NCBI GenBank assembly: GCA_963920665.1
Contig: OY987268.1
Span: 746,501 to 810,500, forward strand
Direction of reading: 5' to 3'
Source of the DNA: Straminergon stramineum
Lineage: Eukaryota > Streptophyta > Bryopsida > Hypnales > Calliergonaceae
DNA: 64,000 nt
Part shown: positions 8,889 through 54,985 of the stretch, one piece after another
How the letters are laid out: each line of letters opens with the position of its first letter
How positions within the stretch are numbered: the stretch's first letter is position 1
The notes under the pieces: generated by a model
What the model was told of the DNA's origin: nothing
Seen by the model: only the letters and a program-made list of their open reading frames with translations
Database searches by the model: none
Translations under genes and position numbers: made by a program

Positions 8889-8892
8889 TTAA

Positions 8893-9171
8893 CCCTTAAA
8901 CTTCGACATGGATGTTTTGTGTCCGATGGATGACTTTAGTATTGACTACAAAAAAACAGAAGTGCACCATTGGTCTAACAATTGGAGCAATTTTGCTAAC
9001 TACGTTGGTCATGGGGGCTACGTCCTTTAACCCTTAAACGTCGAAGTGGATGTTTTGTGTCCGATGGATGACTCTAGTGTTGACTATAGAAAAACAAAAT
9101 GCACCTATTGGTTTAATAATCAGAGCAGTTTTACTAACTACCTTGGTCATGGGGGCTTTGTCCTTTGAGGG
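8893..9171. mobile_element. Head-to-tail pair of piggyBac-type MITEs with TTAA flanks
   Basis: The segment begins CCCTTAAAC and ends GTCCTTTGAGGG, with TTAA immediately outside both ends (8889-8892 and 9172-9175). Inside are two copies of a unit of about 140 bp (8893-9030 and 9031-9171). Both contain gatgttttgtgtccgatgga and ggtcatgggggct. The junction reads gtcctttaaccctt, as if one right end and one left end had been fused over a shared TTAA. TTAA targets and CCC-starting ends are typical of piggyBac elements. No coding content. Confidence 0.8.
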
Positions 9172-9548
9172 TTAATTCCTAAACAATGGATTGGTAACGA
9201 CGGGGGAGAGGCGGGATGTGCACTGTTCAACATCCATTATTTAATCGTGAGTGCCCAATGTTGTAGAAGCCTGCATTTCTAGTTGCCCTCATCAAAATTG
9301 CAAGAAGGGCAACCTATGGGCTAACACCATGCACTTGTATTTATGTGCCAATTTCTTTGTGTCCATGCACTCTAAAAATATGAATGCATCCACATGATGC
9401 TACTTCTGGCCTTCTATGATGCAACACATCTCTATGATTGTGTTAAAAAAATGGATGAAAAAATGCATTCCTACATCCACAGATTACTTTCTTGTTATTC
9501 ATTGGACAAAAAATGCCCGCATTGGTGTTTATGGGTTAAGGGAGGTAA

Positions 9549-10008
9549 GAGCATCTGCAATGCAACCGAGAACATGCCAAGTATTGGCACTGTAGAGGGT
9601 GCTTTGGCATTTCTAATTAAAACCCAGCTCCAATGCAACCGTTACAGGGCCCTCCACTTCCACGGCCTCAGTATGCAACCACTCGGGATTGGCAAGTTTG
9701 CAAAATGTGAAGGGCCTGTGAGTTGTCCCCCTTGTAGGAATAGTTATTATTGTCAATGCTTCTCAAGCATTGGTATGTGTGCTAATCAATTCTACCTTCC
9801 CTTGTTTCCATGAAAAGTCTCCTTTCACTGTAGATTCTTTTTTTTTCTTTCTTTTTACAATATGGAAAAGTCCATTTGACATTTGGATTACCAGCTTTGC
9901 ATTGGGTCAGTTTTTCCAAAGAAAAATCCAGCACTGTGCGGGCCTCGTGGAATGGCTCGCCATTTGTCTTTCCAGGGCTTGTATGCCGAGTATGCATTGC
10001 AGATGCTC
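9549..10008. mobile_element. Tourist-like (PIF/Harbinger) MITE, 460 bp
   Basis: There are perfect 16-bp terminal inverted repeats (GAGCATCTGCAATGCA at 9549; its complement ends at 10008), flanked by a 3-bp TAA target duplication (9546-9548 and 10009-10011). The TIR sequence and the TAA/TTA target are the hallmark of Tourist-like elements of the PIF/Harbinger superfamily. A 139-codon open frame (9394-9813) runs across the left boundary of the element and is therefore not a gene. Confidence 0.9.
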
Positions 10009-10011
10009 TAA

Positions 10012-12627
10012 GAAGGATGCAATTGTGCCTCCATGGCCAACGAAGGAAGGAACCGGGAACCACTGTGCTGACTTGCTGTGCCCAGGCTTTCGCAATGGGA
10101 AGTACTGCTCTGCTCTGCACTGTACAGGATGTGTAACTTTTACTTGTATACCGTCGCAGGACCCCAGCGGCAGCAGCTGGGCAGGGCGGGGGCCGGGAAG
10201 GGGTTTCCTTTAGTGGCCGGGGCCCGCCCGGGGGTGAGATGAGTCAGGCAGAGGCGACCCCCGGACTTGGGACTTCTTTTCATTTAAAATAAGAAATCAA
10301 TATCATGGACAATCCCTGCAGAAGATCAGCAGCTGCATGTGCACCCTGGGATAACAACAAGAAGCTGCTGCTGCTGCTGTTGCTGCTGGCAGCAGGATTG
10401 AAGGGAAACGCGCAACTCCAGCCAAGGTACTAGAGGATAGAGATCATTAATTTCCACCGCTGTAGAGAACCCTTAAGCGCTCCGAAGATCATAGTTGTAG
10501 ATGACGAAGTGAAGGAATGCGAAGGGTTCTTCCAAACTACCTCTCAGTCTTTCCTCGAATCTTGAAAGATAGCTTTCCTTTAGAACCCATTTGATGAAAT
10601 GGAGAGTAGAACAAGAATATACTCATTCAAACCAAGACATGAGCAGAAATGTGCAAAAGTTCAAATTTTTTTTACCGGGAGAGTCCTTTTTGGATACAAG
10701 TGAAGAGCCGATTCTGGTGAAACGAAATGAATCTTTTGTCACAGACTATAGCTATGTACACATGAGTTTGAACCAATGCGAAGAGGGACCGAGGTTGTAG
10801 ATCACTATTGAGGGAGGCTGCAATATACTGTATATACGGTAGTTGATTGGATTAGGAAGAAAGGATACTTAGACAGTGAAGATTGGCATCAATCGTACTG
10901 CCAACAGCCATGGCCGTAAGAGTGGGACCCAAATGCAATTCATGATTGGCATGTCACCAAAAGAGAGCAGCAGCTGCACAGCAGCAGCAGCAGCAACAAC
11001 AACAACGTCATGAGGAATATGGAATCATCTTTCGTGATTTGCATCATCTCATGCTCACGAGTTTCGGCTCCACCCAGCCATCTCATGCATGTTCACACTT
11101 GCATGGCATGGGAGCTGAGCTTAATTAGCTAGCAAGGTCCTGCTGCATGGATCGGAAGAGTAAGAGAGCGGGGATGTCCATGTCTGTTTGCTTGCTTGCT
11201 CGTTTGTTGAAAGCTTGCTGCAAGTTTGAAAGCGGGAAGTATGAAAGATGATAAGGTGCAAGTGTTCCACTGCACAATTGGGCTTTCATTGCGAAGTTAG
11301 GGTTGTTGCAGCAGCAGGAGGAGGGCCTGGACTTCTGGATGATGTCTGGTCTGAGGTGCTCTGAGCTTGCACGTGTGGAGCTTAGTGTGGCGTGTCAGGC
11401 AGCTTCGTTGCCCCTGTCCTTACGTCATTCCAACTTGCAGCAGCTCCTGGAGGGAGCTCCATGCTTTCCTGCTTCATCGTCTCTTTCCTCAGAGGGTACT
11501 GGACTTATCGCTGCTTGCTTGCACTCCTCCCGAGGTCGGCCTGGACTCTAGCTTGACCTGCTTCCCAGGGAGGCTGCCTGCCGGGTTTCTGCTCCTGGAT
11601 GGACGAGACGGGACCGGAGAGCCTGGAGACCGCCGGACAGACATAAAAACAACAACAACAGCACCAGCACCATTATGTATGTAGGCAGCTTACTCTCCCT
11701 TAGTTCTGCTTCCGCTTCATTGGTCTTTACTTGGGGTTGGAAACTTGGAACTCACTCGGTGCAGTTTACCTTTCCGGTGGTAGCTCCTATCAGTAAGTGC
11801 ATGCCACCCAGTCTGTTGCATGAGACGCAGACAGGCTAAGCGTTAGAGAGAAAGACAAAGAGTACGTGTGTTTGTTTGTGAGAGAGCAAGCTGGAATATA
11901 GATGCATGTCATATCTTGCAAATGGGCGGAGAATATATTAGTGATGGGCTATTGCGGAGCATGTTTTGTTGCCAAATCAACAGCTAGCATGATTTTTGGA
12001 ACAGATAGTGTACAGAAAACATTCAGTCCAGTAAGTTGCTGTAGCTGTACTTTAGTTGGATTAGCACATCTGAGAGTAGCTTGAGAGACGTGTGGTGGAG
12101 AGATAGCCTCATCAATCCGGCCTTTGTGGGTTACGAGATTGGTCGGAGAAGGAATAAGAGTATTTGATTTTAGAGGGTCTGTCAAGCACGGAGAGGTGCT
12201 CTTAAGGGCGAAAAGGAATTCTCAGCAACTGGTTCAAGGGGAGCTTTCCAAAACATCTATTATTGCCAGTTGCTGGATGCACTAACTTCCACTCTTCCCA
12301 GGAGTGTTGCCCGCTGTTTTTTAAGGTTGCATTGAGGTCACTTTGCTTATTCAAGAAGTTACATATATGTACTAGGTCATCTCATCGTTTTCTGTGACTG
12401 TGTGTGTTTTACATATCCTTTGTTCTCTTTGGTGGTGTTGGTACTCCTAAGTGATCAGCTGGAGCTGGAAGAGAGCAAGGTGATGGCGTTATTGTACCCA
12501 TGAGGTGGGGGTTAGCTGGCTTAGCTTCTGTGAGTTGATCAGGTTCAAATATTCAAGGGGTTAGCTAACCAGAGGGTGATAGTGTTGGCAAAGCTGGCTG
12601 AAGCACTGGCGGGGGTAAAGGGATAGA
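10012..12627 (+). other. Upstream region and probable leader of the BSK gene
   Basis: Base composition changes here from AT-rich to balanced. A very GC-rich patch at 10150-10260 looks like a promoter or transcription-start area. (CTG)n at 10362-10390 and (CAG)n/(CAA)n at 10964-11006 are of the kind common in plant 5' leaders. I could not place a transcription start or leader introns, and no other protein-coding exon is recognised. Confidence 0.4.
10946..11128 (+). other. Possible upstream ORF with poly-Gln tract
   Basis: A 60-codon frame carries four Ala followed by nine Gln, encoded by the CAG/CAA run. If transcribed as part of the BSK leader it would be a uORF. It is just as likely to be a by-product of the trinucleotide repeat. 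Confidence 0.2.
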
Positions 12628-16842
<4,215 letters not shown>

Positions 16843-17634: not shown

Positions 17635-17638
17635 TTAA

Positions 17639-18918
17639 CCCTTAAAGTAAGTAGGTTTTTAAAACCATGATGATTTTTTTAATGAATCGTTAGTGCAATC
17701 TAATCAAGAAATGACTGAGGGTGTGATTTTTGGTGAATTGTTTGAGTATTGAAAAGGTGCCTTGGGGCATCACTTCACATCTTCATATCTTTTTTTCAGG
17801 TCCTCCTAATGATCCGAAAAAAAATACATATCATGATGATATATATATTTGTGGGGAAAAAAAATCAGAGCTTTTGGAGCACTTTTGGGTATTCCTATTT
17901 CGACACTTTGATTTTAGCAAGGTACCGCCTAATTGAACATCTTTCAAGAATCTTGTTAACGGTGGCATTTTCTCACAAATTGTGCAATTTTGTTGATCAT
18001 TTTTTCATAGGAAAGCTACATAAGTATTCTTTCTCTTAAATGGTGGTGATCATCAAAAATATTCCACATGAATAAGGAATTATGCTTGTTACAAGAGCTA
18101 GTCAAAAAAATAAACATTATGTTCAAACACCCCCGGTCATTTAGAGGTTATTCTAAACTCCCATAGAGCTATTTGAAAGCTTTAGTTTGGGTAGGTTTAT
18201 ATGAAGTCAGTTTTTAGTGGATGAAAGTGAAATTCACATTTCAGAAAGAGATGCACATTTATATGAAGCTTTTGCCAAATGAGATTTTTTTTCCAATTAG
18301 GTGCCTAAGCCAAAGTCATAGGGCTCAAAAGTCTTCGGTGTAGTTTGGGTGGCATGCTAGGAGTGAAGGGCATGTAATTAGGCAATTTGTGAATTTTTTG
18401 CCATTAATTCGTAAAGTACTACAAGGCTATGAGGTGGCGTTTGCAACAACATTCATAGAAAATTTGAAATGTGAACCTCACTAAATAATCCAAGAATAAC
18501 AAAAAGATCGACATGATTTTTTTCATTGAATCCATTGATGCAATTCGATCAAAAAATGATTGACTATGCAATATTTGGTGAATTTTTGTAGAATGGAGGA
18601 GGTGCTTTGGGCCATCACTTTTCTAATATCTTTTCTTCTACACCTCAAAATGATCTTGAAAAAATTATGCATCACGATCATGATGGTACTTATCTATGGG
18701 GAAAAAAATCAGAGTTTTCGGAGCACTTTTGAGCATTCCAATTGAGCATTTTGATTTCAACATTCTAATTTCAATATATGTACAAAATATGGCCTAATCG
18801 AGTATCTTTCATCAATCTTGTCAACTATGGCATTCTCTCAAAAATTATGTAATTTCACCAATTTTTTTTCTTAGGAGAGCTACATAAGTCTTCTTTCACT
18901 TTGGTGGTCCTTTAGGGG
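17639..18918. mobile_element. TTAA-flanked piggyBac-like non-autonomous element, 1280 bp
   Basis: The left end CCCTTAAAG follows TTAA (17635-17638). The right end GGTCCTTTAGGGG is followed by TTAA (18919-18922). Two internal segments about 842 bp apart are homologous (17669-18040 and 18511-18918); both contain atgattttttt, ttttggagcacttttg or a variant, and agctacataagt. Near 18130 a degenerate internal right end reads ggtcatttagagg followed by TTAT. This suggests two related elements joined or inserted in tandem. No intact open frame. Confidence 0.7.
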
Positions 18919-18922
18919 TTAA

Positions 18923-21589
18923 CTGTGAATGCTTATATCTTACAATCTATGTAGTTGAATAGGCTGAATTTGTTTCCATACACTCTCACGGTAGTATAGA
19001 GAAATTATGTGTGGTTAGAGGTGATAAGAAACTTTTTTTTCTTCAATTTTCACTCAATGCATTGGAAATGGCAATTCTAAAACAATTTTAGAACCATTAG
19101 CACAAATTCTAATGTAAATTCATGATATTTTACATTATATATTTTTCTTGAACTTGATTAAGAGAGGGAAAAATTTGTATTGACCACGAGGATTTTACTT
19201 CTTCTAGAAACATGAGTTCCCCCCCAAATCGAAACCTTACTCATGTTGTAGTTTTTTTGGACATCCTCACTGTGCGAGATGGTTTGGGGTATGTTAGACA
19301 CCTCCATTATTTTTAAAAATTGGCAAACAAGTAACTAACATATCTACATACCTAATGGTCCAAGTTCCTAAAGTTGTATAGTTCTTCCTTCTCCACAAAG
19401 TTGAGTCAAACTATGCCGACCATGTTGGATAGGTCTCCAAATTTCTAATTAAAGCAAAAATTCAATTTCCTCTAGAGAAAGACACATACATTGATTACCA
19501 AAATATATAAGAAAATTTGCTTGAGCTAGCTAGGAAGCATAAAAAGAAAAATCAATGTATTGATAATGCTCATGCTCTTAAAAAAATACCCCAATCCTTT
19601 AGAAGTTAATGCCCCATAGTCTTTTAGAGGTTAACCCCTTAAGGACCAAGGAGTCCAATTTTTTGAAATTGTAAAGATTTATTGTACAATACAAATTAGA
19701 ATAATAAGTTAATGATGATTCTTGAACAATAGTTGTAAAATGTGATCCATAGATCATATTCTTAGTGTTAGATCAACTTGTACACAAACCAATTTTTTTC
19801 AATAAAATTTGAAGTCAAAAATTGAAAATCCCCTCAAAAATTGATTAAAAATTGAATACTGTGATTTTCACAATTATGTTTTCCTTTCAATTAAAAATGT
19901 GAAGTTTTAATCATAGTGATTTTTGAACATATTATATACTTTTTATTCAAGTCATTTTTGAAGGGTCAATTTTTTAACTCAAAATATTTCTTTTTGAGGC
20001 AAGACCTACTAGTACCTTTTGAGTTATAGAATATTTGCAAAGAATGAACACACAAATCTTTATAAAATTGATGGGTGGAAGAAAATATTTTTGTGCATTT
20101 GGGACTTGTTTGTATTCATTTGTTGTTTGAAATTTGAACATCTAACTTGTCCTAAAGGAATCAATGAGAACGAGTCTATTGTGGACAAAAGTGTATTGGT
20201 GTATATTTTAGAACTTGAAATGTACACCACCTATACAATTGTTCCTAAAATAGATGCACATACTTAGTAGAAACTTGACTGATCAAATCCTACCCACTTG
20301 CTTTACTTATGAAATTTTTTTTATGGAATGACCATCTATTAGCTAGGTTTCCTTCTCAAGGCAAGCCACCATGTAAATTCTTTGAAGTGTTTTGAGTTTA
20401 ATCAATCACCTATACATAAATCTTTGTCCACTTCATGAGTTCTTTTTGTTATTGATAAAATAGATACACCCAAATCCACCATATTTTTGTCCCTACTACA
20501 TGGGTGGTCCAAACAATGTTTTTTGTAAATAAGAATGTAAGCCTCCTCAAGAAAAAACAATCAAAGTTGTTATGTAATTTTCCAAAACTCACATGATATT
20601 ATCTGAATTTTCAAAGTTGAAAGCTTGGGATAGCTACTAATGCACAAAACTTTCCTCAACTCCCAAAGGGCAAAGACCTTTTTTTTGTCAAAAAAACATT
20701 CCAAATTTCCATTTCTATTGCAAGATGATTTTTTCCATATCTAGAAATGGGATCTTGCACTAGATTAGTATAAAAAAGTGTGGAAAAAATTTCAGAAACT
20801 TTGACCTCACAGATTGCAAGATATCTACATTTAAAGTGAAGAAAAGGTGGGCCGTTTCACACCTTCTGTGTCCAGATTTTTTGACTTTGAATCTTTTTTA
20901 CTTAAAATTTTTGCACTATAGATTTGAATTAAAAAAAAAATTGTGTTGAAGAATTGAGTTGAGAGTTTGAGAAAAAAATTCAAAAAAAGAACTTCATTTT
21001 AATTCTTCAAAAAATTGTTATGTACAAGATTGAAAGAAAACTAAATTATTAATAGTCCTAAAATGGAATTGAAACACACTAATTGCAACAAAGAGTTTGC
21101 TCTAGAGAGCAATCTAAGCCAATGTAGAACTTTGCTTTTTGAAAAATTGTGAAATTGAATTCAAAAATGAAGAAAATGCCTCCAAAACAAAACTCTCTAT
21201 AACTTTCTAATCACTAGTGCAAATGGAATGAATCAAATCTTTCCATGTAGAAAAAAATATTTTCTATAAAAAAAAACTTGAATTTTGAGTTATTACATTT
21301 CTTTTCGTTTGGCTAGGAAATTGCTTTTTGTGCTTAGGATGGCATAACTATTGTTCCCAAGTATTGATTGGAACTATACACCCACTGTTGCTTCAACTCC
21401 CATTGCTTGCCTCATAGAACTTTTCAACTCCCATTGGTTGCCTCTTGAAGCCTTGTTTTATTTCAGGGGTCAATAGGAGCACAATACACGCTTCTCCCAA
21501 TTTGCATTCCATTTTTAAAAAAGAGACGACAGAGTTAGAAAAATGGCGCTTCTAGGTTTAAGTACCTTACACCCCTAACGAACTCCATG
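18923..21589. other. Transposon-derived AT-rich DNA between BSK and the Tm-1-like gene
   Basis: No gene is recognised. At 19595-19650 three piggyBac-like end motifs crowd together: TCCTTTAGAAG+TTAA, then GTCTTTTAGAGG+TTAA, directly followed by CCCCTTAAGGACC. Segment 20700-21310 is related to the element at 47231-48156. Both contain a stretch like tttgacctcacagattgcaag, and later aaatggaatga followed by tcaaa and ctttccatgt or ctttccacgt. The element starting at 19635 may therefore extend to about 21330 with an eroded right end. Confidence 0.5.
19595..19650. mobile_element. Cluster of piggyBac-like end motifs around shared TTAA
   Basis: Two rightward ends (19595-19605 and 19619-19630) and one leftward start (19635 onward) surround TTAA tetramers at 19606-19609 and 19631-19634. 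Back-to-back ends on one TTAA are expected when elements repeatedly insert at the TTAA flanks of earlier copies. Confidence 0.55.

Positions 21590-21620
<31 letters not shown>
21590..21620 (+). repeat. (A)31 homopolymer
   Basis: There are 31 consecutive A residues after a GC-richer stretch of about 90 bp (21500-21589). This could be the tail of a small retroposed transcript, but no flanking duplication is visible. It lies about 500 bp downstream of the Tm-1-like stop codon. Confidence 0.9.
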
Positions 21621-21622
<2 letters not shown>

Positions 21623-22127
21623 CAGGGTCTGGACAATCCGTCTCAAAAGGGGCAGCGACAACAAAAAGATCGCTCGGTTGTTTGGGCATTTCGGGGTTCC
21701 GCCACGTGTGATGTGAAACATACCCACATAATTCCACTCGCTCCACTCGGGAATCAAGAGGAGGCCAGTCCACACTCCACAGAACTACCAAACAACTACA
21801 GAATCAGATTCTGGAAATAGGACTAGGACTATCGTACTCTTGAAGAAATAGGAGTTCAGACTGGACTGGATTTGAAAAAAGTACTCCGAAATAATTATGC
21901 ATTTGTTCTACGAAAGCATTCATTAGGGGTCCAGAGAAAGTGAGGATAGAGACCAGATGCGAGACACGTATATGTGAAGAGATCATGAAGTATAGCCGTA
22001 TTTCACAAATACTTGAACATCTATTGGAATGAATGATCGTTTATCACTCAACTCTGCACTCCTTAGAAAGGAATGGTAATTATCCATCACATCACATGCA
22101 TGTGAAAGCTTTTCAAGTCTAAGAAGC

Positions 22128-27592: not shown

Positions 27593-27599
27593 TGATTTC

Positions 27600-31785: not shown

Positions 31786-31789
31786 TTAA

Positions 31790-34492
31790 CCCCAAAATGC
31801 CCGAGGCACCAAATTCTGGTGTCAACAAAACTTTGAAGTTAAATAAAACTTTATCAAGCTCCTATTTCTGTAGTAGTTTGTATTTTTTTTAAATTCTTTT
31901 TGAAGTCTAGTTTTATCATCTGAAGTCCAATTTTGCAAATGAATGATTATGATTTTTCTATTCAAGATTTTGTGCTAGGGTGTCCATTGCAAATCTTGAT
32001 TTTCTAGTATTGAGGGCTCTTGGAAATGAGCCTCAAGCATACACTAGAACTTGGAGAAAAAATCACATTGGAAATTCATTTAAAAAATTATAGAACAGAT
32101 TTTGAAGGGGTCATGCATGTTTTGCCCTTTGACCTCATATTTTTTTGGTGACCAACTTTTTAGTTTTGATAGGTGAAAAGAGGATTGAAAGACTTCAAAT
32201 CACTTTCGCAGTTTTAACACCCTCATGATTAAACATTATAATCTTTTAATCCATAAGTGATATTGTTGTATTTTCTTTTTTCATGTGATCTCTAACATAT
32301 CTAGTTTAAATTTGTATGGTTACAATTCAAAAAAATTGATAAATCTGATCAAAATGTTGACTTTGTGTTCAATTTAGAGCAAATTCTAATAAGCTCAAAA
32401 GAGGCCTTGGACATTTAGGGTAGGGTTGAAGTAGTGTGACTTTAGTATATTTGTATCATATGCACTATTAGGATAGATAGAGGTAGTGTTTTGAAAAAAG
32501 AATAATTAAGTGTACTTGTTTTTAGTAAGGGCAAACTAGGAAGCCTGAGATTGGTTGAAAGGCAAATTAATGTTTTGCATGGGACCATGGGTGGGATGAA
32601 TAAGGATTAAATTATGAAAAAGCATCCCCAAGATTTGTTAAATTGAAATTCCATAGAATTGTTGTCCATGCTTAAATTAAGGATGGACTTTCACATAGAG
32701 TTAGAATAAAATAAAAAATTATTTTCTAGAATCATTTGCTTTAATTTTGCCAATCCCCATCATATTTATACTTCTACATGAGTAGAAGAAAACTACATTT
32801 TAGACATAGCTTTTTCTTCTTGTCAATTTAAAAGCAATAAAAAAAATTCAAGTCCAATATAAAAATTAGTTTTTTAGAAGTTGAAAAGTTGCCTCCCCCT
32901 ACTTTACATGGGTTTCTTTCTATAAATTTGCCAATCAAGAGTTCCAATTTCCTTCTTGCTAACATTGCACACTTCTATAGAGAATTCTAGAAATCCTTTG
33001 ACCTTCCTATAAAGTTTAGTTGATTTTGGCACATGGAAATCTACCCTAATCTAATGAATTTCAAATTTGGGTTAAATCACATTTCTCAAACCATGTCCAA
33101 GTTTAGGCTTTAGAGTATAGAATTCTAATGAATCTAATCCCTATTTATTATACTAATAATAACAAAGATAGAGATTTATAACCCATGATGACCATGAAGC
33201 CAAAAATTAACCATTGGATGAGATTTCAAGAAATGAAGAATGTACCTTTTTGTCCAAAAACAAAATCATTTTTGATAAAGTACCTTAAGTTGGTGATACA
33301 TCTAAACTGCTAAAGAACACATTATGTATCCTTTGGATGATTTCAAAGAGGCATTAAGGATGGAAAGAAACAATTTTCATCTAATTTTTTTATGAGAGTT
33401 GCTTGAATCCAATTGGAATGAACGATGTTGAATATACTCTCTCCCTATAACATTTTTTGACTTTCTTGCAACAAAAACGGCAAATCCATGAATGACCATG
33501 TAATGTATTTTGGCAATTTATATTCCTATCTATAAATTTTTGAAGACTTAAAAAGAACATGCAGTTGCGTCTTTGAAAATAAAATATAAAAATGTCATTT
33601 ATACATTGTTGTAGAATGAATGTGAGTATAGAAAGGAACTCCAAAGTTTGTCATAGACCAATCCTTTAGGGTTGAGGAATTGCACTTAACTAGAAGATGA
33701 GTGTAGCTTAGTAACTTATTTCTTTTTATAGGCTAACATGAATACATGGTTAACCCTAGACTACCACCAACACCATTCTATGGCGTCTGGATGACAGTCT
33801 AGGGTCTTCAGAAGAGATTAGAAACAATTTTTTCATCCTTTTTGTTTTTGGTTGACTTTTCATCTTGAGTTACCAAGAGTATCCAATTGAATTTTTAGTT
33901 TAACTAGTATTTGCTTTCATGTAGTTGAGAAGTAAGTAAAATAAACGGATGGTCAAATTTGTTATTTTAGTGTATTTTGAGAAGTTGTTGCTCCTTGCTC
34001 TGAATCTAAAATTTCTCCAAAACAATGACATTTTTTGAGTTTGAGACCAACCAATAAAACAAAGTTCATCTAATCTAGTTTATATTCCAATTGGAATTTT
34101 GAAAAAATTCGTAATATTGAATATTTTATTGTAATTTGAACTTTGGATATATTTTCATTGTCCACTATATTCTAATTATAGAATGACATGGAAATTGAGT
34201 TTTCACCATGATGTTTGTCACTGTAATGTACACACATGGTGAAATTTTTAGATTTTTTGAAATAATTTTCTATTTAATGTGATTTTTTCTTTACTTTTTT
34301 TTCGAAAATTCTCATAAAAATCAATTTTCCTCAAAAAAATATAATTTTTTTGTGAAGTAGAGAAGACATGTAATATCATCTCTGAAAAATAAACATAAAA
34401 TTTTTCATACAAATCTATTACCAAAATGGCAACAAATTGAGTAATGAACAACAAGGCTCTGAATCAATGGTTATAGGTCCGTCCTTTAGGGG
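31790..34492. mobile_element. Probable TTAA-flanked piggyBac-like element, 2.7 kb
   Basis: The left end CCCCAAAATGCCC follows TTAA (31786-31789). The right end GGTCCGTCCTTTAGGGG precedes TTAA (34493-34496). The first 500 bases are shared with the reversed copy at 4275-4812. A degenerate internal right-end motif (tcctttaggg followed by ttga) occurs at 33662, and a short TTAA-preceded hairpin (CCCTAGACT...AGTCTAGGG) at 33749-33806, so nested insertions are likely. No coding remnant is recognised. Confidence 0.5.
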
Positions 34493-34496
34493 TTAA

Positions 34497-40212: not shown

Positions 40213-40216
40213 TTAA

Positions 40217-42262
40217 CCCCTAAAATTCTTTGCAATCACATTGTGGTTTTTGAGGTTTTGGTCATTCAACTATGTTGTAGTCATAATTTTTGACTTATTC
40301 GAGTGTAAAATATTTATTTTTGGATACATAATTTTGATACTAATTCAAAAATGCAGCATGCACACATATGCAAGTTCAAATGCATTTTCTTAGTAATTTG
40401 GCCTCAAAAATTCAATTTCTGCAATTATTGAAGGCCTTGTAAGGAATTGTGACTTGTAGAATTTTTTTTTAAACTTGAGGATATTCTTTCCTGAGGGTTA
40501 TGATATGAAAAATCATCTTTTAGACCATAAAAATTGTATTTCAATTTTTTTTTCAATTATTTTTACCCTCACACTTTAAATTGTTCCAATGCAATACTCT
40601 ACCATTTGGATTGTTAAAAAAAGAGATGTTTTGATGATACAATTTTGATGTTTTATGAAAGGAATCATAGTAATACAAGCTTATAAGTTTTTCACAATGT
40701 GGATGGGTTCTGGCAAGAAATGCCTAATGTTTTTGGCTAAAAATAGCCTATTTTAGTGGATATTGTGACTTTTGAAAGATTTATTTTTAAATGAAAGAAA
40801 ATACGGATAATTTATAAATCACTAAAACAATTGTGTCCCTAAAACAATTTAGACCTAGAAAAATTATCTTTAAAAGTTATGCACAAAAAACACACAATGG
40901 AAAATACCAAGAAAATGCACACTATGATGTTTGATTTTTAGAAAATAGTAAGAAAATTAAAAAATTAAAAATTAAGAAAAATTCTAACTTGAAGGTGATC
41001 CTTCTCAACCATTTTCATCTTTGGAAAAATAGAATTGTGTTCTCTTCACTTGCGCAAAGGTAGTGCACTTTGAGCACATTCGGAAGGTGGAAAATTTACT
41101 ATTTTTAGAAAATATTTTGTAATATTTTGTAACTTTAGTAGAAGTCCTTGAATCCCATTTTGAGCTTCAAATTCATATTTTTGGATTAAATAGTACTATA
41201 ACCCTCCAAAATGACTAAGGTAGAGACCCAATTAGGAGTTGTTTAAAAATAATAAATAATTTCTTACAATTCCAAAAAATACTCAATGTCTAAAACTATT
41301 ACATGAACCTTCCTTTCAAATTTCATGCAAAATTGACCTATAGCACAAGAGTTATGAGCAAAAACCTCTTGTCTTTGGCAAAGGGGACCAAAAATAGGAC
41401 AAGTATTTTTGCAATCACCATGATTCATGTTCTAAATTTTTGTATGCTATTTTACAACATGAGAATTTATATCATACTAAAAGATGCAAATTATATTCAA
41501 CATCCTCTAATTCTCATTGAATTTTGCTGTTGATATACCCCTTGGTCATATAGTAGAAAAAAAAATTATTTTGAGCTAGTAGATCTCACAAATGATAAGG
41601 TTATTTGAATTTGAATTTTTTTGAAAGTATTCTACATGAATTTGCCATGAAAATCCTATATTTAGAATTGTAATTATTAAAAAAATTAATTGAAAAAACT
41701 TGACTCAAAGTGATCATTTTCTACAATATTAATACTCAAAATACAAAGAAATTTTAGGTGTTGAGTTGGTTAACAAAGTAGACATGAAGAAATTTTTTTG
41801 TTCCCAAAGTATTGCAATTTAATATTCACTATGGATATCACAATATGATTTTACCTTGAAATTTTTGTTTTTTTGAAACCAAAATTTCGTCATTAATTTA
41901 CTTAAGTAATACGAGGGCAAAAATCAAAATTTTGTGAACACCTAATTATTGTAGAAAGAAAGCTTGGTAAGGATTATAACATCAATGAGCATCTCAAATT
42001 TTAAAACATATTTAAAAAGACTTTGAATGCTTGTAGAATATGATGAATAGATGTATAATTAACCCATTGTGAAAGTTTTTGCATAAGTACTTCATATTGT
42101 GTATTGCATTTTACTATAGGCTACAAGAATACAAAGGGGCCCAAATTGTACGTAAACAATTCTGTAGTGCAAAGTGATTTCTTTTGAAGACATAGTGAAG
42201 TTTACTTGAATAGTTTATTCTACTAGCCACTAGAATGAACCACTTTTTACGACAACTTCAAG
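40217..42262. mobile_element. Partial piggyBac-like element (left end visible)
   Basis: The left end CCCCTAAAATTC follows TTAA (40213-40216). No clear matching right end precedes the next element, which starts after TTAA at 42263. The block 41145-41405 is related to 59150-59410, next to the piggyBac transposase relic. Both carry gcaaaggggacc or gcaaggggac, aaaaataggacaagt, and upstream ccaaaatg.c.aaggtaga. The segment is probably an internally deleted relative of a coding element. Confidence 0.45.
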
Positions 42263-42266
42263 TTAA

Positions 42267-44266
42267 CCCCTAAAGGACCAAGCTATGTTTTGGGGCAACA
42301 TAGCGATTTTGCGTAGCTCACTATGAACAAAAAAATTCACTATATTTTTTGGAATTTTTTCTGGATGTGGGGATGAAGAGTACCTTGTCACTCTACCAAA
42401 AAAATTACAATCAGATGTGCTTATAAATAGTTATGGGGCAAAATGTCATTTTTCATAGATGGGGGGCAGCATGGGCATGATAATTAACACTACAAGGAAA
42501 TTTGCTTGGGAATGCCCACAAGAGCTTGGACAGAGTCTAGGGTAGCCTCTCGCCTAAGTTCAGATTGGGGTACTTCTTTGACATTCTCTGAATTAATAAA
42601 TTTCACCCAATGTAGAAGAAGGTGGTGATAGGGAGGTAGATTCTTTATAGCTTCCTTTAGCCTAATAGAGAGGTTACTCCTAATTATAGACTGAAATAAA
42701 AACAAAAATGTCCACATGACCAATTGAATCAAAAACAAATGTCATTTGACGAACAACCATCCAAAAAAAATTGATTGTTAGTAGAATCAATTAGTTATTT
42801 GAAATGTTGTAGGATAGAGAGTGGAGAGGTTGCTCATACAATCAAATCAATTGCTCCTTATCAATTCTCAAAGGGTATGGGACAATTTGAAGATGAGAGT
42901 TTGACTGCTCATTGTCAAAACATAAGAATTATGTTCAAAGTAGAATTTTAGACCTCCATTTTGCTATAGTAGAATAACTTATTTCAAAAAAATTTAAACT
43001 AAAAAAAGTTGGTAAATAAAGCTAAGTTCATTTTCAAAAAACCGTTTGTGATTTTGAGCCTCCAAAAAAAAGTTATGGACAAAATTCAAAGAAGATGTTT
43101 CAAAATGTTCATGAAAATGTCCTTTCCAACCCTTCTCTAAAATTTGTCCATAACTTTAGATTGGAGACTCTAAATCCCAAACGGTTTTTTGGACATGAAA
43201 CTTAGCTTGATTTACTAACTTTTTTTAGTTAAAAGTTTTTTTAAATAAATTATTCTACTATGCCAAAATGAGGTATGAAATTCTACTTTGAACATAATTC
43301 CTACTTTTTACTTAACTTTGACATGAGTTGATTTCTTAGTAATTATAATTTACATATCCCACATAGTTTGTTTGACCTCTTACTATCCCACTTGTATAAA
43401 GATATTCTCTACTCTTCACATTTATGGGCAAGCACGTTGATCTTTAAGTTATAGGAGATTAAGTCTCAACATTTCTATATTATCAACATTTATTGTAGAA
43501 TACATAAAATTCTACTCGATTGAGCAAATTACATCTTCAGAATTTAGGGAAAGAGTAAAATCTTTGAAATAAAGGGAACATAATGTAATGTCAGTATATA
43601 GTGTTAGTGAGTTCTGATGATGAATTGGGTTTCGCTAACCCTGACCCAGCCTCCTCCCTTCCCAAGTCCAATATGCCCAACTATCCCTTCACTTCAGCCT
43701 GGATACAAATTGATCAAGCTTGTGGAAGTTTGATATTTTGTGCAATTTTTATTTTTATTTTTTCCTCCTCTAGAGTTAGTTGAAATCTAGAACTCCTCCG
43801 TTCAAATTTTGAATAAATCATTGTATGTGCAAGCCATAAATTGTTGAAAAAAGGGATTTGTATGAGATGTTTTTTGAAGCTAGTTCCATGTCAGAATTTT
43901 TTGGTACATGTTCCCCAATTTAAAATATTATAATTTTTTTGAACATGTGACCAACTTTATTGCAAAAATCAAGAAAAAAAGTTTAAGCAAAAAAGTGAAA
44001 TTAACTTGTCCAAAAGCCTCCCCGAATCAGCCTGGAATTTGGATGCCCCCCTAAAACATTTTTTTCAACTTTAAACACTATATTCTCACAATCTATCTAG
44101 TCAAAACCTCCCATTTTTTTACTAAAATATATAATGAAGTACTCTAACACAAGATCTTACAGTTAGATGCAACAATTTTTCATTTTTCATTTTTAGGGAG
44201 CCTTTGCCATCAAAACAACCCATTTTGAGTGTTTTTTGGTGAAACACAATCAAAGAACTTTAGGGG
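42267..44266. mobile_element. TTAA-flanked piggyBac-like non-autonomous element, 2.0 kb
   Basis: The left end CCCCTAAAGGACC follows TTAA (42263-42266). The right end ACTTTAGGGG precedes TTAA (44267-44270). Ends and flanks match the other copies in the window. The interior holds a hairpin of about 375 bp. The open frames are short and unrelated to transposase, so movement would need a transposase supplied in trans. Confidence 0.75.
42926..43300. repeat. Large imperfect inverted repeat (arms ~180 bp)
   Basis: The left arm (about 42926-43105) and the complement of the right arm (about 43113-43300) match along their length: gaattatgttcaaagtagaa, atagtagaataa, actaaaaaaagttggtaaat, aaaaaaccgtttg and gttatggacaaa. 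They differ by scattered substitutions. Almost no spacer separates the arms, so a transcript would fold into a long double-stranded stem. Confidence 0.9.
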
Positions 44267-44270
44267 TTAA

Positions 44271-47226: not shown

Positions 47227-47230
47227 TTAA

Positions 47231-48156
47231 CCTCTAAAGATTTTTGATTATATTTTCCCCCAAAACACTCCCAAACTACCATTTCTAGTACAAGTACCAA
47301 ATTTTAGAAAAAAATATATTTTTGGATATTTGTAACCATAAGATTTTGTAATACAATGGTTTGAAAAGATGTGAAAATTCAGAAATTTTGACCTTGCGGA
47401 TTTCAAGATATTAGCATTTGATTTGACAAAAAAAAAATTTTGACCTTGCAAAAACCATAGTTGTACTTCACAAGGTCACATTTATATGAAAAAATATCCA
47501 AAATGGTGATGCTTCTTTAAATTCATTCTTAAAGGCAAGTTGGTTGCATGCTTAAAAAATTTAAAACTATTTGGAATAATATAACATACAAAGAAAAATT
47601 AATAAATAGAAAATAGAGAATGATTCAAAATACGAAATTATTAAGAATTTAAGTATGAAATTGAAAAATTCCAATCCCAATAGTTGAAATGCTTTAATAA
47701 ACAATCTACATCCTATGAATTTTTTTTTCAAAAATATTAAAAATTGAGTTGAAAAAAGAACTTTCAAATTAATTTTAGACAATAAAAAATCTATAATTTC
47801 CCACAAACTAAAACTCCTCATAAATTTCATCTCATTAATAAAAATGGAATGATTCAAAGCTTTCCACGTCTATATAAAAATCTAAAATACTAATTTCAAA
47901 TTTTCATTTCTAAAGAAAGTGATTCTTAAAGAATTTTTTTTAACTACCCACACTTCCCATTGAACTATGAAAATTACATATCATATAGTAAATTTTTAAC
48001 TATGTAGTCAAAGTTATGAAAATTTTTAGGCCTTAAAGCTACTCTTTAAGCACAAATTGTGAAAAAATCTCAAAGAAAAAAAAGAAAACTTTTTGTTCAA
48101 ATAGAGTTGCCCAAAATCATTATGTTGTCAACAAAACGTTGATTGGTCCTCAAAGG
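47231..48156. mobile_element. TTAA-flanked piggyBac-like non-autonomous element, 926 bp
   Basis: The left end CCTCTAAAGA follows TTAA (47227-47230). The right end GGTCCTCAAAGG precedes TTAA (48157-48160). Interior segments are related to 20700-21310. No transposase is recognised. Confidence 0.7.
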
Positions 48157-48551
48157 TTAATCTAATAAGAACTAAAATTGATATGAATTTTCAAACATGT
48201 TTGGTGCAAAAATATAAAACTATTAATATATGGGGTCATGACCATTTTAAAAGGTTCAACCGCCACCCTAATCATGAGTGTTTTGAAAACACAAGTGGAA
48301 CATTCTAAAAGCACCTTTTTTATTTCTTGAAGCTACAACTTGTTTTGACAAATATTTGTTCATAGCTCAACCCAACTTGAATCAACATTTAAATGAACCA
48401 AATCTAAATCAGAGACCTTAAACCATCCATAGATATGAACTTCATGTCATTCTTTGACAATAGCACCCAATTGCTTGCCCAAAGAAAATTAGTTACACAC
48501 TCTGCAGAAATGGGTGACGTCTGTTGGGCAAATGGGAGGGGGCTGACAATA

Positions 48552-51500
48552 TTAGTCTGATCTACCTTCCAGTATGCATCTTCGGAGTTGAAAAAAAAAT
48601 TGAAGCTTTACATGAGCAAGAGTGAGTATTGCTCCAAATATTGAAAATAAGTTGAAGACTCAATCTGTACGTGTAATGACAATAACAAAGTTTACGCAGT
48701 AGAAGATATATACCTAAATTCAGCTTCCAGGTTCTGTGGCTTGACATCTTCGTGAATCCCAACAAAGGCATCGCTTGACAATTCTACTGCCCTTTCGTGC
48801 TCGGCAAAAAGCTTCCGAAGTTGTTCTTGAATTAAGCCCCTTAGGCTTGAAGCTTCAACGGGAGAAAACCATTGAAGACCAAACTGACAAGAAACGACGG
48901 AACAATAAGTAGAATCAATGTGACTCTTAAATTGCAGTACAGTATCCAAGAGATATTGTTCAGATCACAGATACTCTAGATGAACAGCTCAGAAAGCATA
49001 CAAATCTTTCTCACCTCGCGGATGGGACAAGAACATAAGTACGTACAATGCCGATAATTGCAGATCAAGTGGATACTTACCACATCTAAATCTTCTAATC
49101 TATCCTCCACGTCGGAAATCTTCATTGTTCTTGGAGCATTTTCTACAAATTTTCGTATGTAATGAAGAAGGAAAAGCCCGCAATCTGATTCATTTTCCTG
49201 CAGCGGAACCTGAATCAGGCATTTTCAGATCATCGCACAAAAGAATGTCAGAAAGACAGGTTACAAACAACAGATCAACTGTATCGCAGTCGCTCCCCAT
49301 GAACAGAGGCAGAGAGCTCGCTGATAGAAAATTATGCAGTAACCTCTTGCGGGAATCCACTATTAGTCCCTCCAAGTTACTGAAGACTTTCAGGAAGTCG
49401 GGAACTATGAGCATAATAGTTAAGAAATGAAGTCCAACTGCACCTTTTCAGTGTGAAAAATCACATACCGGAACTCTCGTGGCTGGTATGATATTATATG
49501 TTGATGTGAGGATGCAGTCTTCACCTTCCATCTTACTTCCCCCATAAGTAGCTTTCCATTTTGCCACAAGATACCTGCCAGCAACAACAGCATATCATCG
49601 CACCCCAAGAATAACGTCAAGCACGATCGCAATTGTTAAACAATTTGGATTCAGTTTGCACCATCTTGTGCAGACACTAAAAGTATCCATGAATATGGAC
49701 GCACATGATCAGAACCCCCTCGCAATATCTACGTGAAGTTGGAGAACTGATGAGCTCCAATTAGTGAACCCGTGACTAACGAGAGGTTGCAGAGAGACTA
49801 GGTCATTTACTTGAAGAAGCAGCAAAAATTCCAAATGTGGCTCCTGATGGCATTGCAGGATGCTCCATTCTTACATGCTCAACTCAGTACCACGAAAATT
49901 CAAGCGCTGCACTTGCTCGAGAAAATTTGATATGGATCTAACCTGCGAAGTAAACGAAATACTGTGCGACTCTCATGTCCATATGTCATAGAATCAAGAT
50001 GCAAGATGCATCGCTCACAGTGACTAGCACTTCCAGGTCCGTACTTAGGAAAGCAAATGATTGCCAAGCTCCAATGCAACCTGCGCTTCAAGAGCATTTT
50101 ATTCAAGGAATTGCCAAAGAATGTACAGAGATCATGTCATAGCCGCGAAACCTTTTCAATGAACAGCAAGCCTCACCAATAAAACCATGTAACAAATAAA
50201 CAATAAAAATCGAATATTATATTAAACTTTGCTAAGTTTCAAAACTGTTTCTCTGGACACAGCACCAGACATTGACAAACCAAACTCACTTGCCATGGAC
50301 CGGGACAATGAGGTAATCTTTCTCAAAAATGTTTATGCCTCTTGTCCAGTTCAGTATCTTGGAAAAGTCTGGAGATATTTTCTTCGTCTGACCAGGCAGA
50401 ACCAAATGTCAAAAGTAAACATGAGATATAAACAAGTGCAAAAAATCTGTCTAACAAATTTTGCAATAGTATTCGAATTTTTGTAAGCCTGTGATATAGA
50501 ACCAAGAACGCATGGAGAAACGCATATCGTCTCATGTGATTTAATCTCTGCATATTCTCTTGCATGTTCTCTTGCATATTTTCTTGCATACCTTCTTGCC
50601 AGCTACGGAACTTAATTTTTTATAAAAGAAGCTATTGAAGAAATGGAAACGTCTGCCACCCTCCAAATTTAGTAACTCCCTCTGAATGTATCTGCACAAA
50701 ACACGGAGAAAAAGCAAATTGTGTTTTCAACCTCTAAATAATCAAAAGGTCTCCCAGCAATTACTAGAAGATACTTATCGCACAAGTATGATACTTATCG
50801 AACTAGTTACAGTAGCTACCTCGAGAGAGGTACTCTTATTCGATGCATTCATTGCGAGATCTAACTCTGCTTCTTAACTGGCACGAAGGATTATGCAAAA
50901 AAAATCGAACTGATTGTCACATCCAAATTCAAATTGACATTGCCGCACAGGATGAAAAAGTCGATAATCGTATCGTTCAGAAACTCCGATGGCTCCAATC
51001 GTAGAATATCCGAAGCCAAAATATCTATTGCCTCTGGATCCGCCCTGCATCACACAGTTAGTATAATTACCATATCCACCAGCAATTTTGCAAAGCTTGC
51101 AGAAAAATAAAAGCATGTAGGTTCCGTGCTTAGAGAAGTGAGCGTAAATTCAGAGAATCAATGTCAGCTAATGTACCTCGATGGATACGTGACCCTGCAA
51201 AAATCAAACTCAATATATTCAATACAATTGGTGCATTGCGACAGAATGGTTTTTTTTCTGCAAGAACAACTTGTCAATGTTGCATAACTACATTTCATTC
51301 CATGATTCTTGAAGTACAAAACTAGAATTAAACCCGCTCCTATTGGATAAACAAAAAGTTACAGGAATATCTGAACAATCCTGATAATGCATGTTCAATC
51401 ACTGGCATTGGACACTCCCAATCTACATGATTTGAAGGCTGAAAGACAGAAAATAACAGAGTTCAATAGAATATACAAGAGAAGTGCATCTTTGTGTAGA

Positions 51501-53413
51501 AATCTGAGGTACCTTTCTACTGCAAATTGCAAGCCAGATGGAAATTGCCGATCAAGAGAGTTCACTGCAGATTCGATATCATTTGTTGCATCCTCCCCTT
51601 CACTTGAAGAATCAATCTTTACAGGAGTATCCTGTAATAAACAAACAATAGTTTATATTAACCATATGTAAGAAAATTCATCAGTATATATCTGAAAACG
51701 TAGAGTGTCTACATCAAACAACACATAAAATAGAAACGTAGGACATGTCAACAGCAAAACATTCCATACTCAAAATACAACACAAGGATGTAACAAAACA
51801 TTCAAGGACAATCCTCAAAACCCTTCAGAGACAAAAGATTATCTTACAGGCGTTCTTCCAATAAGATCTCTTTCCAATTCATAGATTCGTCGCATTGGAC
51901 CACTGCCATGTGATTGTGCAGTGTGATTCTGCAAGAATACACACCATTTATAGCAAGATAAATATGTGGGAAAGAGTTGCGCTTAGGAACACTTACTAAA
52001 GTCTTAAATTAGCATAAGAGACTGAAAATCACAGAGTGCTCCAATGTTATGAATCCATCAGAATAAACCTAAATATAAGACTTGCAAGCGTTCATGAATC
52101 TGCACGACCCACACTGCCAAGTAGTCCTACTTGACTAGAAGGGACAGTCAGTAAACAAATTTCACTCACTAATCCCGACAAAAATCCAACCAACCTGAAA
52201 GTCGATATTCAAGGAAGGAGAATCCACAGCTTTTAAGTTTCTCCTGCATTCATAAAATCAAGTCAAATACTACTGCACCGATTCACCAAATAGAAATACA
52301 TCTGCTAGCACATAATGCCACTTGATGTTTGCAGACTAGCTATTGTGTTCTCCATGCAGCAAATTCCAAACCTAAATGTAACTAAATGGTAAGAATTTCA
52401 AGCCAAAGTGTTCAGGCTACGTTAACATTTTGTGACTCCGTGTAGGTGCATGAACAAGTTGTGTGTCTTGACACAATAATTGTAAAGCACTTTCATTGCA
52501 GAACACGAGAAGTAGTTCTTCTGGATAATGCAGCGCTCACCGACAAAGAGAACACGAAAAAATATTGCTTCCAGGAGCACTGGACAAGTTGAGAAAATTC
52601 TTGTTACAAAGAATGCAAAGCCTCAGATGCGCAGCTCGAATTTCCTTAGAGCTCCCGGTTGAAAGAGTTCTTGATAACGACAAACTTGATTCGCTAATCT
52701 CTGTAATAGTCTCAATGGACAAATTATCCTGATTGGAATTCAACTCATCATTTGCAACCATTGCGGTGTCCAACGATTGTTTCTTAGATATACGATCGGC
52801 CTGGTCAATCAAATTCACAGCGATGAGATGACCGAATACTTCTCATTTCCATCATCCTAAGTACTTCAAATGGCTCTTATCCACGCCAAACTAACACCTG
52901 CGAATACGGATGAACTGCCATGATGACTTTCAAAAACAATAGTGAACGAGCAGTCTGTTTACAACAGTACAACTGCTGATAGCTCTTGTTAGGATATGAC
53001 ATTTGAATGAATTCTAATTTGAAGAAAATTAGGGAACTTACCACCTGACGGGGATGGTTACCGTTCACTAGCTCCTCTTCCGCAAGGTTGCGTACACATT
53101 CCTTGCCACTAACTCCGAAATTCATCATATTTGAAATCTCCTCAAGCTTCTGAAAATACTCTTTACCTCTCTCTCCTCCGACTCTGAGACTCATCAACTT
53201 TGATTCATTCTTCGACTTACTTACCTTGCCCTCGACAAAATCTAGAAATTTACTGCGTTTACGCTCCTTGGCAGACGCTTCATCATTCTGAAACTTTCTG
53301 CGACTACTCTCCATGGCAGACTCTACAACTTTCTGAAATTTTCTGCGTCTACGCTTCTTGGCGGACCTCTTAGGACAGGCCATACTTTTCAATCGAGCTA
53401 TAAAAGAACGCAT
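48552..53413 (-). CDS. ULP2-like SUMO protease (peptidase family C48), 14 exons, ~587 aa
   Basis: It removes SUMO from nuclear proteins and belongs with the plant ULP2/SPF-type proteases. Exons on the minus strand: 53413-53042, 52800-52541, 52243-52195, 51928-51848, 51631-51513, 51194-51177 (18 nt), 51044-50949, 50691-50592, 50387-50290, 50080-49943, 49574-49469, 49209-49081, 48883-48714, 48579-48552. Phases close throughout. The catalytic core reads EFLNDTIIDFF, RRFHFFNSFFYKKL, NWTRGINIFEKDYLIVPV, LHWSLAIICFP, CILHLDS, YLVAKWKA and VPLQENESDCGLFLLHYI. The triad His400/Asp427/Cys489 and oxyanion Gln483 are all present. Residues 1-120 are Lys/Arg-rich with repeated RRKFQ-like units. Cys186, 189, 207 and 210 form CxxC-x17-CxxC. 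The last exon is uncertain: an alternative acceptor gives a stop at 48562. Confidence 0.9.
51177..51194 (-). other. 18-nt micro-exon of the ULP2-like gene
   Basis: This exon encodes the VTYPS at the start of the protease domain. It is bounded by ...ttgcag and gtacat. It must be included to join exon 5 (ends in phase 2) to exon 7 (starts ADPEAIDILASDI) with the family's conserved order V.YP...D.I. Gene finders often miss exons of this size. Confidence 0.75.
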
Positions 53414-53959
53414 TTTCGAGTATGCCGATTGGCAACAAGCTGTACTGAGGCAGAGCGGTTCCGAGCCTCAGTGTACTCAACCGATAACGAAGATGCGACA
53501 AAATGTTGCCTCAGAGAGCAAGTGCAATGCAAATCCCGGTCAGGACCGCAGAGAATACTCTTCCAGAGTCAGTAGCTGCTCCATGGCACACTCCTAGTCT
53601 TGAAATTAGAGCAGCTCACAAAGGTCGAGATAGCTAGATGACGAAGAATCGGTGCATAGCGCCTTTCTGGGCGGCAATGAGTAATCAAGGCAAGTGAAGA
53701 GCAACTGAAAATGACAACCGAGACACTGTGGTCAAACGAGCACATCTCTGCCCTCGTCCAATTCTAACTTAGTGCAGCAATCATGGCTCCCAGTTGTGCA
53801 TCCTTACGAGTTACGAGTGCTCCTGCTCACCGTCGCTGCAACGCGAATACACGGCGTGCGGAATCTTCGGAAGTCAGTAGAGGCTGTTAGCAGCGAAGGC
53901 CGCAATTAGGGTTTGGGGCTTTGGACGCTCACCTGATGCGACTCTACCTCAAGAAATTC
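53414..53959 (-). promoter_or_regulatory. Upstream region of the ULP2-like gene with a telo-box
   Basis: Gene-like composition continues to about 53960. At 53906-53914 ttagggttt gives AAACCCTAA on the gene strand. This telo-box is common near plant transcription starts. It lies about 490 bp upstream of the ATG. No TATA box can be assigned with confidence. Confidence 0.4.
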
Positions 53960-54716
53960 AAAGGCACCCACACTCTGATACAACAGGCTAATTTGTTTTA
54001 GTCAATACTTGTAAACAAACCTTTTCGGTGATAACATTTTAGCGCTAGTATCTTGGCTCTGCAGCAAAGTGCAGGTACAAGTGCACATTTTAGTATGAAT
54101 AAATACATTTTTATCTACACTTTGGACGGGTCATGGACAAGGTTAGCTTCAACACTCCTCAAAATAAAATGAATAAAAAAACTTTGCCATATATTTCCTC
54201 AATTTCAAAATAAATCTAGGATTTCCTGGAAATGGCTAGATTAATGCATGAGCTCCTCCTATTTTTAGGAGATTGTATAAATCCTATAAGTTCTATGAAA
54301 TCCCACTAGGTATGAAGGGATGGAAGTCAACTACGAAGCAATGCATGTTGAAAATAGGCAATGAAATTGATAAATTTCTGCCTTTTAAGAAATTGTTCTA
54401 GTGGTATTAATTTTGATCATTCTTGCAACATTAGTGTAGTGACATCTATAGATGTCTTCTATATTCAACTCCAACAATGTCTTGTGATTCAACTCTAGGA
54501 AATTTTCAACAAGAGATTTGTTAGTAGTAGCTTTTCTACAATTGTAGGTTGAATTCTTTGCCTTTGGTTGGTTAGAGTTTGCATTTTGATTCCCTTTGCA
54601 AGGATTGAATTGTTATATAGTCTTTGGAGCATGGGTATTAGTGGATGCTTTTGCTTTAGAATGTTTGAACTAGCTTCAATTATTGTCCATCAAGTTGCAG
54701 AGAGCCAATTTCGAAC
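53960..54716. other. AT-rich DNA, no gene recognised
   Basis: Nothing recognisable. Confidence 0.5.
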
Positions 54717-54720
54717 TTAA

Positions 54721-54981
54721 CCCTTGAGCATCATTGAGTGAACAATATAAGTGAAGAACTTTTTTTTGGTGGATCTCAAAAATCCAAAATAATTTGAGAA
54801 CTACTCAATTACTAAAGTTTTTATGTTTGAGATTTGAAGCCAACTTACTGATGAGTATGAATCTGCAACTTATAAGAGAATCCACCATGTAGATTTCAAG
54901 ATTGTAATATTTGATGAACTTGGTATTCTACAATTCCTATTATCTCATTGTCCAAAAAATGTCCACTTTGACATACAAGGG
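54721..54981. mobile_element. 261-bp TTAA-flanked MITE
   Basis: It begins CCCTTGAGC after TTAA (54717-54720) and ends ACAAGGG before TTAA (54982-54985). The ends form a short inverted repeat (CCCTTG/CAAGGG). The interior is non-coding. Confidence 0.65.
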
Positions 54982-54985
54982 TTAA

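Follow-up and report, generated by a model that had tools for sequence, protein, structure and literature searches.

To which class of mobile DNA do the TTAA-flanked segments of a moss contig belong, and is a single transposase likely to move them? These questions are raised by a 64,000-bp stretch of the Straminergon stramineum genome (hereafter the window; C6:746501-810500, contig OY987268.1 of GCA_963920665.1), in which a first-pass annotation had described a family of piggyBac-like elements. The genome behind the window comprises 326,016,511 bases in 59 contigs, and the window is, as judged by its genes, moss nuclear DNA. Six of its TTAA-bounded segments are almost certainly piggyBac-superfamily DNA transposons of the moss nuclear genome, mostly non-autonomous internal-deletion derivatives akin to miniature inverted-repeat transposable elements (MITEs). 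The piggyBac identity first proposed is upheld by autonomous copies in the same genome that have the same ends and carry a PF13843 transposase.

Ends of the window elements and their excess in the genome

TTAA lies immediately outside both ends of all six segments, which had originally been picked for TTAA, and all 12 ends start with CCC or CCT (CCC in five segments, CCT at both ends of 47227-48160). The matching end motifs of the first-pass annotation were recovered as good pairs at 8889-9175, 17635-18922, 31786-34496, 42263-44270 and 47227-48160 and as a weaker pair (CCCTTGAGC / CCCTTGTAT) at 54717-54985. The single ends it had placed near 4812, 19630, 19635 and 40217 were found at 4816(-), which has G as its first base (TTAAGCCCTAAAT), 19631(+), 19634(-) and 40213(+). 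The description of these elements as filling the intergenic DNA was too generous, as the six segments total 7,497 of 64,000 bp.

The ends were sorted into types by eye from anchored alignments. An A end (CCCCTAAAGGACCAA-like), recognised by a GGAC that follows the initial seven or eight bases, is present at 42263, 48160, 18922, 19631, 34496 and 9175. B ends lie at 44270, 47227 and 40213, ends of C type at 8889, 9027, 9539 and 54985, and ends of D type at 31786 and 4816. In all five better pairs one end is of A type and the other of a different type, and the unlike ends are clear in alignments of the window ends and of the autonomous copy L055 described below. Homology between copies halts at TTAA, as in the alignment of 31787-32395 with 4815-4164 (E 4e-39). 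The claim that the elements share almost nothing internally does not hold for 42263-44270 and 47227-48160, which are homologous at both ends (63.7% over 262 columns and 57.6% over 399). Self-alignments of weaker E-value in this AT-rich window were not taken as evidence unless independently confirmed; the exception, marked as weak, is the match of end 9539 to end 54985 (73% over 52 bp, E 0.006).

The frequency of the end motif was determined in the window and in the genome. In the window, where the tests were not blind since the motif came from the first-pass annotation of the same DNA, 17 of 752 oriented TTAA sites precede a match of at least 7/9 to CCCCTAAAG, compared with 159 of 127,224 for all other 4-mers combined. 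The pattern TTAACCC[CT][TC][TA]AA occurs 10 times there, against a mean of 0.15 and a maximum of 2 in 300 block-wise dinucleotide shuffles, while TTAAGGG, the opposite orientation, shows no excess in the window (10 observed, mean 9.3). Two checks that the first-pass annotation had suggested, a genome-wide count and a pairing of ends compared with shuffled data, both came out in its favour. Exact TTAACCCCTAAAG was counted 12,296 times in 326 Mb (6,166 forward and 6,130 reverse), as against 37 for the reversed pattern (12 and 25). Pairing was assessed on the first 2.07 Mb of contig C1, using the first 75 of 100 listed places (the last 25 were left out, as 22 of them lie on one strand and the listing thus looks truncated). 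The 29 pairs of neighbouring ends no more than 7 kb apart comprised 18 convergent, 5 divergent and 6 same-strand pairs; the convergent number exceeds the strand-shuffled mean of 7.4 and maximum of 14 (10,000 shuffles), and 11 of the 18 span 913-958 bp.

Autonomous copies and their deletion derivatives

A genome search with PF13843 (DDE_Tnp_1_7, the piggyBac transposase family) returned at least 118 rows, every one over the curated cut-off (best E 7.8e-79). This number is a lower bound, 116 of 473 candidates having been scored, and corresponds to about 116 loci, two of them split. Fourteen rows have no stop inside the match, and the rest have one or more. PF13843 was found in none of 14 control genomes. 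Among 20 transposase loci with 1.5-kb flanks, an end of at least 7/9 was found in five, and the other 15 may end beyond the flanks. Five of the 14 stop-free loci were taken with longer flanks, and three of these were extended further. TTAA is present on both sides in four of the five (L054, L055, L057 and L058); the fifth, L056, is nested and also lies between two TTAA.

L055 is 6,292 bp long; a B end bounds it on one side and an A end on the other, both next to TTAA, and it contains a 906-residue frame between stops. L054, on a different contig, is a 6,431-bp element with TTAA-closed ends, 97.9-98.8% identical to L055 and with differing flanks. Two further copies represent separate families: L058 (4,665 bp, 700-residue frame between stops, TTAA and matching ends) and L057 (6,413 bp, 620-residue frame between stops, both ends CCCCTAAGCGCCCC, TTAA-closed). 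All four start with CCCC at their ends. The PF13843 transposase lies between the TTAA-flanked ends in L055, L057 and L058, and by near-identity in L054. The A end (CCCCTAAAGGACCA-like) is 5' of the transposase in L054, L055 and L058, and the B end (CCCCTAAAGTTCCTT...) is 3' of it in L054 and L055. A further end variant, CCCCTCAACGCCCC, is seen at L034.

The L055 frame matches solved piggyBat (9c0f, E 1.9e-24) and piggyBac (6x67, E 1.1e-20) structures in the PDB. The catalytic residues D268, D346 and D447 of piggyBac (numbering of PMC7351741) align to aspartate in L055 and, by eye, likewise in L057 and L058. Cysteine-rich C-termini are visible by eye in the same three proteins, with no Pfam match to a zinc-binding domain. 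The L056 transposase is probably dead, to judge from its sequence, because it has asparagine at the second catalytic position and its frame terminates early. The lineages of L055, L056, L057 and L058 are 35-58% identical to one another, and each of L055, L057 and L058 shows an end variant of its own; the suggestion that one transposase mobilises the whole family was thus not sustained. L039, L054 and L055 are 98.5-99.1% identical, and the identity of L054 and L055 at two sites suggests that copies of the L055 family moved recently.

The relation of the window elements to these copies was then examined. Element 42263-44270 aligns with the two L055 termini at 61.2% (E 3e-32) and 60.2% (E 3e-22), and 47227-48160 aligns with them at E 7e-29 and 8e-12. 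Both termini of L055 are matched by both elements, so that the two are non-autonomous, internal-deletion derivatives of an autonomous piggyBac; the window copies are strongly diverged, with about 60% identity to L055. For at least these two elements the earlier view that the shared ends do not reflect simple copy descent is not supported, as they descend from one autonomous family. Of seven C1 elements of about 900-950 bp, five match both L055 termini, L023 matches both L058 termini and L020 matches one terminus only. The ~930-bp copies L006, L008, L016, L027 and window 47227-48160 can still be aligned with L055, for about 440-525 bp from the B end and 190-250 bp from the A end. A profile of the ~930-bp MITE, built from 12 genome copies of which one is incomplete, matches 47227-48160 over positions 11-933 (E 7.6e-181). 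It matches seven places in the window in all, four of them outside the named segments, and none in the reversed window. The proposal of a non-autonomous system is therefore borne out, with a large non-autonomous fraction and L055-derived deletion copies.

Empty sites, rival explanations and a proposed mechanism

Restoration of a single TTAA at empty sites, predicted in the first-pass annotation, was looked at in two cases, and stands clearly in one and in part in the other. L058 sits in a degenerate repeat array, and its joined flanks align with a neighbouring unit bearing one TTAA (81% over 121 bp), a clear empty-site case. L056 is a 6,553-bp piggyBac of a different lineage, with ends CCC and TCC, which has a TTAA on either side and is nested inside a ~930-bp element (L056:1079 to L061, joined coordinate 8556). 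The outer element minus the inner one plus one TTAA gives 929 bp and aligns end to end with other ~930-bp copies (86% L011, 81% L025, 80% L016, 71% window 48160-47227). Other joined-flank matches that span the junction (L008, L016, window 9027) were flank-to-flank matches or a tandem end and were not counted.

Several observations weigh against the piggyBac assignment or parts of it. The L056 nest is a partial empty-site case, in that a 13-bp gap lies beside the junction and, of the relatives shown, the window copy alone carries TTAA at this point (TTTAAAG), the others having CTAAAG or CCAAAG. None of the elements at 8889, 17635, 31786 and 54717 has both ends matched by L055 or by L058; these four are placed in the superfamily by TTAA and end sequence only. 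Six-frame Pfam scans of 31786-34496, 42263-44270, 17635-18922 and the stretch 40213-42262 found no transposase domain. A palindromic subterminal repeat was sought in the window ends with mixed outcome: it was not significant by stem score (p 0.10), folding energy gave p 0.035 and a comparison with shuffled ends gave p 0.013. In 23 A ends, which are related and not independent, the mean stem score was 11.2 compared with 9.55 for TTAA controls (p 0.0016), and in 11 other ends the repeat was not seen (p 0.78). These values are no more than suggestive of a palindromic repeat in the A ends resembling the one to which the cysteine-rich domain of piggyBac binds. CCC is moreover common and not obligatory at piggyBac ends, since some bee piggyBacs start with CAC (PMC10140906); in beetles CCCT is the commonest end motif (PMC12732532).

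The motif includes CCCTAAA, the plant telomere repeat, which occurs 18 times in the window, and interstitial repeats or promoter teloboxes could lie beside TTAA by chance. This explanation is hardly credible, as TTAA is by far the commonest 4-mer ahead of CCCCTAAAG-like sequence in the window (17, with CAAT next at 5), homology continues inward for hundreds of bases and breaks off at TTAA, the ends pair convergently, and a transposase sits between them. MITEs of the PIF/Harbinger type, whose rule is a 3-bp TWA duplication, were rejected given the four-base TTAA on both sides and PF13843 in the autonomous copies. Sola3 elements duplicate TTAA with a transposase of their own, and are unnecessary for family B because PF13843 lies between its ends. 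The Kolobok superfamily likewise duplicates TTAA, which is found here on both sides, and TTAA-specific members are reported from a green alga and red algae (PMC9587614). Kolobok ends start with 5'-RR according to the same source, whereas the moss ends start with 5'-CC, and PF13843 is carried by elements with these ends; the rival is refuted for family B and is very improbable overall.

The alternative with most to commend it is that several unrelated TTAA-targeting families have converged on one terminal motif and that only family B is piggyBac. Families C and D and the element at 17635 do have little in common with L055 or L058 past the ends. Each of the five better pairs has an A-type end, however, and the L057 and L034 ends resemble the D end by eye, so that convergence appears unlikely, and membership of all six segments in the piggyBac superfamily is preferred. 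A degenerate A end also had three matches in viral contigs; two were identical, none continued as an A end and all entered an ATG, and they were taken as chance.

The anatomy of the moss elements is consistent with the use of piggyBac chemistry (PMC7351741). A transposase dimer would synapse the two unlike ends, and the element would be cut out via hairpins at TTAA and joined to a new TTAA, which would become duplicated. Removal would restore one TTAA, and gene-less elements could move when both ends are kept.

Window features, distribution and comparison with known systems

Family B is represented by 42263..44270 (+), a non-autonomous element with an exact A end at 42263, an exact B end at 44270 and a mid-element palindrome of about 400 bp (42917-43309, 82% complementary) within the section missing from 47227-48160, and by 47227..48160 (-), a non-autonomous element of the ~930-bp class with its B end at 47227 and A end at 48160. 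A single B-type end with TTAA was found at 40213..40300 (+), its partner not being found. The MITE profile detected a decayed copy of the ~930-bp element at 20658..21370 (-; E 8.1e-65), a decayed A end that has lost TTAA at 1953..2202 (+; E 6.1e-44), a decayed B end with CTAA replacing TTAA at 7616..7843 (+; E 8.1e-19) and an interior fragment at 18920..19091 (+; E 2.5e-13). The last adjoins 17635..18922 (+), a 1,288-bp TTAA-bounded element with an A-type end at 18922 and no Pfam match in six frames. It holds two direct repeats of about 400 bp (17670-18047 and 18513-18908, 71% identical) and is perhaps an old dimer. Three ends cluster at 19597..19650 (19609-, 19634-, 19631+); a single TTAA serves two of them, which stand back to back.

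The family D element 31786..34496 (+) is 2,711 bp long and runs from a D-type end (31786) to an A-type end (34496); it had no Pfam matches in six frames, and no remnant of a coding sequence was found in it. A second copy of the D end occupies 4164..4816 (-), with TTAA at 4813-4816, and no partner end was found. An A end at 4449 was considered for this copy and rejected (local match p 0.066; homology continues to 4164). In the short element 8889..9175 (+) the C-type end is duplicated in tandem (8889 and 9027, a 138-bp repeat present twice), and an A-type end lies at 9175. This element abuts a possible further element at 9172..9539 (-), with which it has a TTAA in common; this has a C-type end at 9539 and a weak other end (TTCCTAAAC). 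The weaker element 54717..54985 (-) has a C-type end at 54985. It sits inside 54189-55041, a possible nesting; the terminal repeats of 54189-55041 resemble those of a Stowaway-type MITE.

A decayed piggyBac transposase nearest the L057 lineage, overlooked in the first-pass annotation, lies at 59323..60808 (-), in two frames with several stops. It is matched by the L057 protein in tblastn (E 9e-43 and 3e-35, 36-37% identity) and by the L057 element at the DNA level (E 1.4e-56). Its 5' part may be at 62120..62412 (-), which matches L057 element positions 5429-5716 (E 2.6e-7 / 1.9e-7), and a repeat common to 40705-41420 and 58678-59431 extends into its 3' end. Another decayed L057-like transposase (L060, C6:735148-736257, minus strand, 39% to L057) was observed about 10 kb ahead of the window start.

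The genes of the window include a chlorophyllase gene at 29.0-30.3 kb, whose top organism-named match is from the moss Ceratodon purpureus (75% identity; four closer matches carry no organism label), a Tm-1-like gene at 23.3-26.1 kb with UPF0261 and PEP hydrolase domains, and a BSK1-type TPR part at 16.5-16.8 kb. Neither Rfam nor tRNA scanning of the window produced a match. An array of imperfect tandem repeats of about 38 bp each is present at 62866-63218. Outside the named segments, an open frame at 52880-53467 (-) has 45-bp tandem repeats and a DDE_Tnp_1_6 match below threshold (E 0.017, 15.9 bits against a cut-off of 25.1).

Protein searches gave 38 matches for L055 and 69 for L057, PF13843 proteins only. 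The closest are unlabelled environmental proteins. Organism-named relatives are from animals and, in the L055 search, one oomycete; no named plant was among them, an absence that is weak evidence, given that the search detects proteins only if they are similar in length and have short words in common. In a tree without support values, which left out P0222, P0224, P0226 and P0227 of the 107 matches and lost two more to a coverage filter, the moss sequences are placed together with unlabelled environmental proteins in a single large group. The superfamily has been described as animal, fungal and protist, with only occasional occurrences in plants, for example red algae (PMC12732532). A broad survey lists piggyBac in all groups, land plants included (PMC4438587), and a fern repeat table gives 1,230 (PMC6890710). 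A Physcomitrella paper mentions the cabbage-looper piggyBac as a tool yet to be tried there (PMC5505980), and of two other moss papers, PMC10619864 has merely the word 'piggybacking' and PMC5253467 has piggyBac only in a reference. Among the top-ranked results of one open-access library, no description of native piggyBac in a moss was found.

The elements are a new and very abundant representative of a known superfamily, in a host where it was not expected. Tentatively, the moss lineage may have its own diverse and recently active piggyBac system, in which several deeply separated transposase lineages and non-autonomous copies in their many thousands have one terminal code in common. The founder of such a system might have arrived by horizontal transfer, from an animal-like or protist source, since the named relatives are from animals and an oomycete and none is a plant protein. 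The finding is notable since piggyBac is scarcely reported from land plants. With near-identical copies of 6.3-6.4 kb at separate sites, recent activity can be put to the test in a plant genome, and a piggyBac native to plants would be a candidate for traceless excision there.

Among known systems, piggyBat (9c0f) is the closest solved structure to L055 by sequence, and the nearest named relatives of L055 are sea-urchin PGBD4-like proteins (32-35%). The moss system differs from both in host and end sequences, and its proteins group with unlabelled environmental ones. Short piggyBac-type MITEs are known from bats. Those of insects (PMC5199201) are likewise short and gene-less, with ends and TTAA kept, whereas the common moss class is about 930 bp and keeps about 190-525 bp of the ends. 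Kolobok and the T2-MITEs of Xenopus also form a non-autonomous family with a TTAA target (PMC6004289), but have 5'-RR (AG) ends and a different transposase. With piggyBac of Trichoplusia ni (IFP2; 6x67/6x68) the moss elements have in common the TTAA target and flanks, 5'-CCC ends, aligned catalytic aspartates and unlike left and right ends (PMC7351741). They differ from it in length (4.7-6.4 kb against 2,472 bp for IFP2; PMC10140906), in frames of 620-948 residues from stop to stop, in the terminal repeat CCCCTAAAG and in their moss host.

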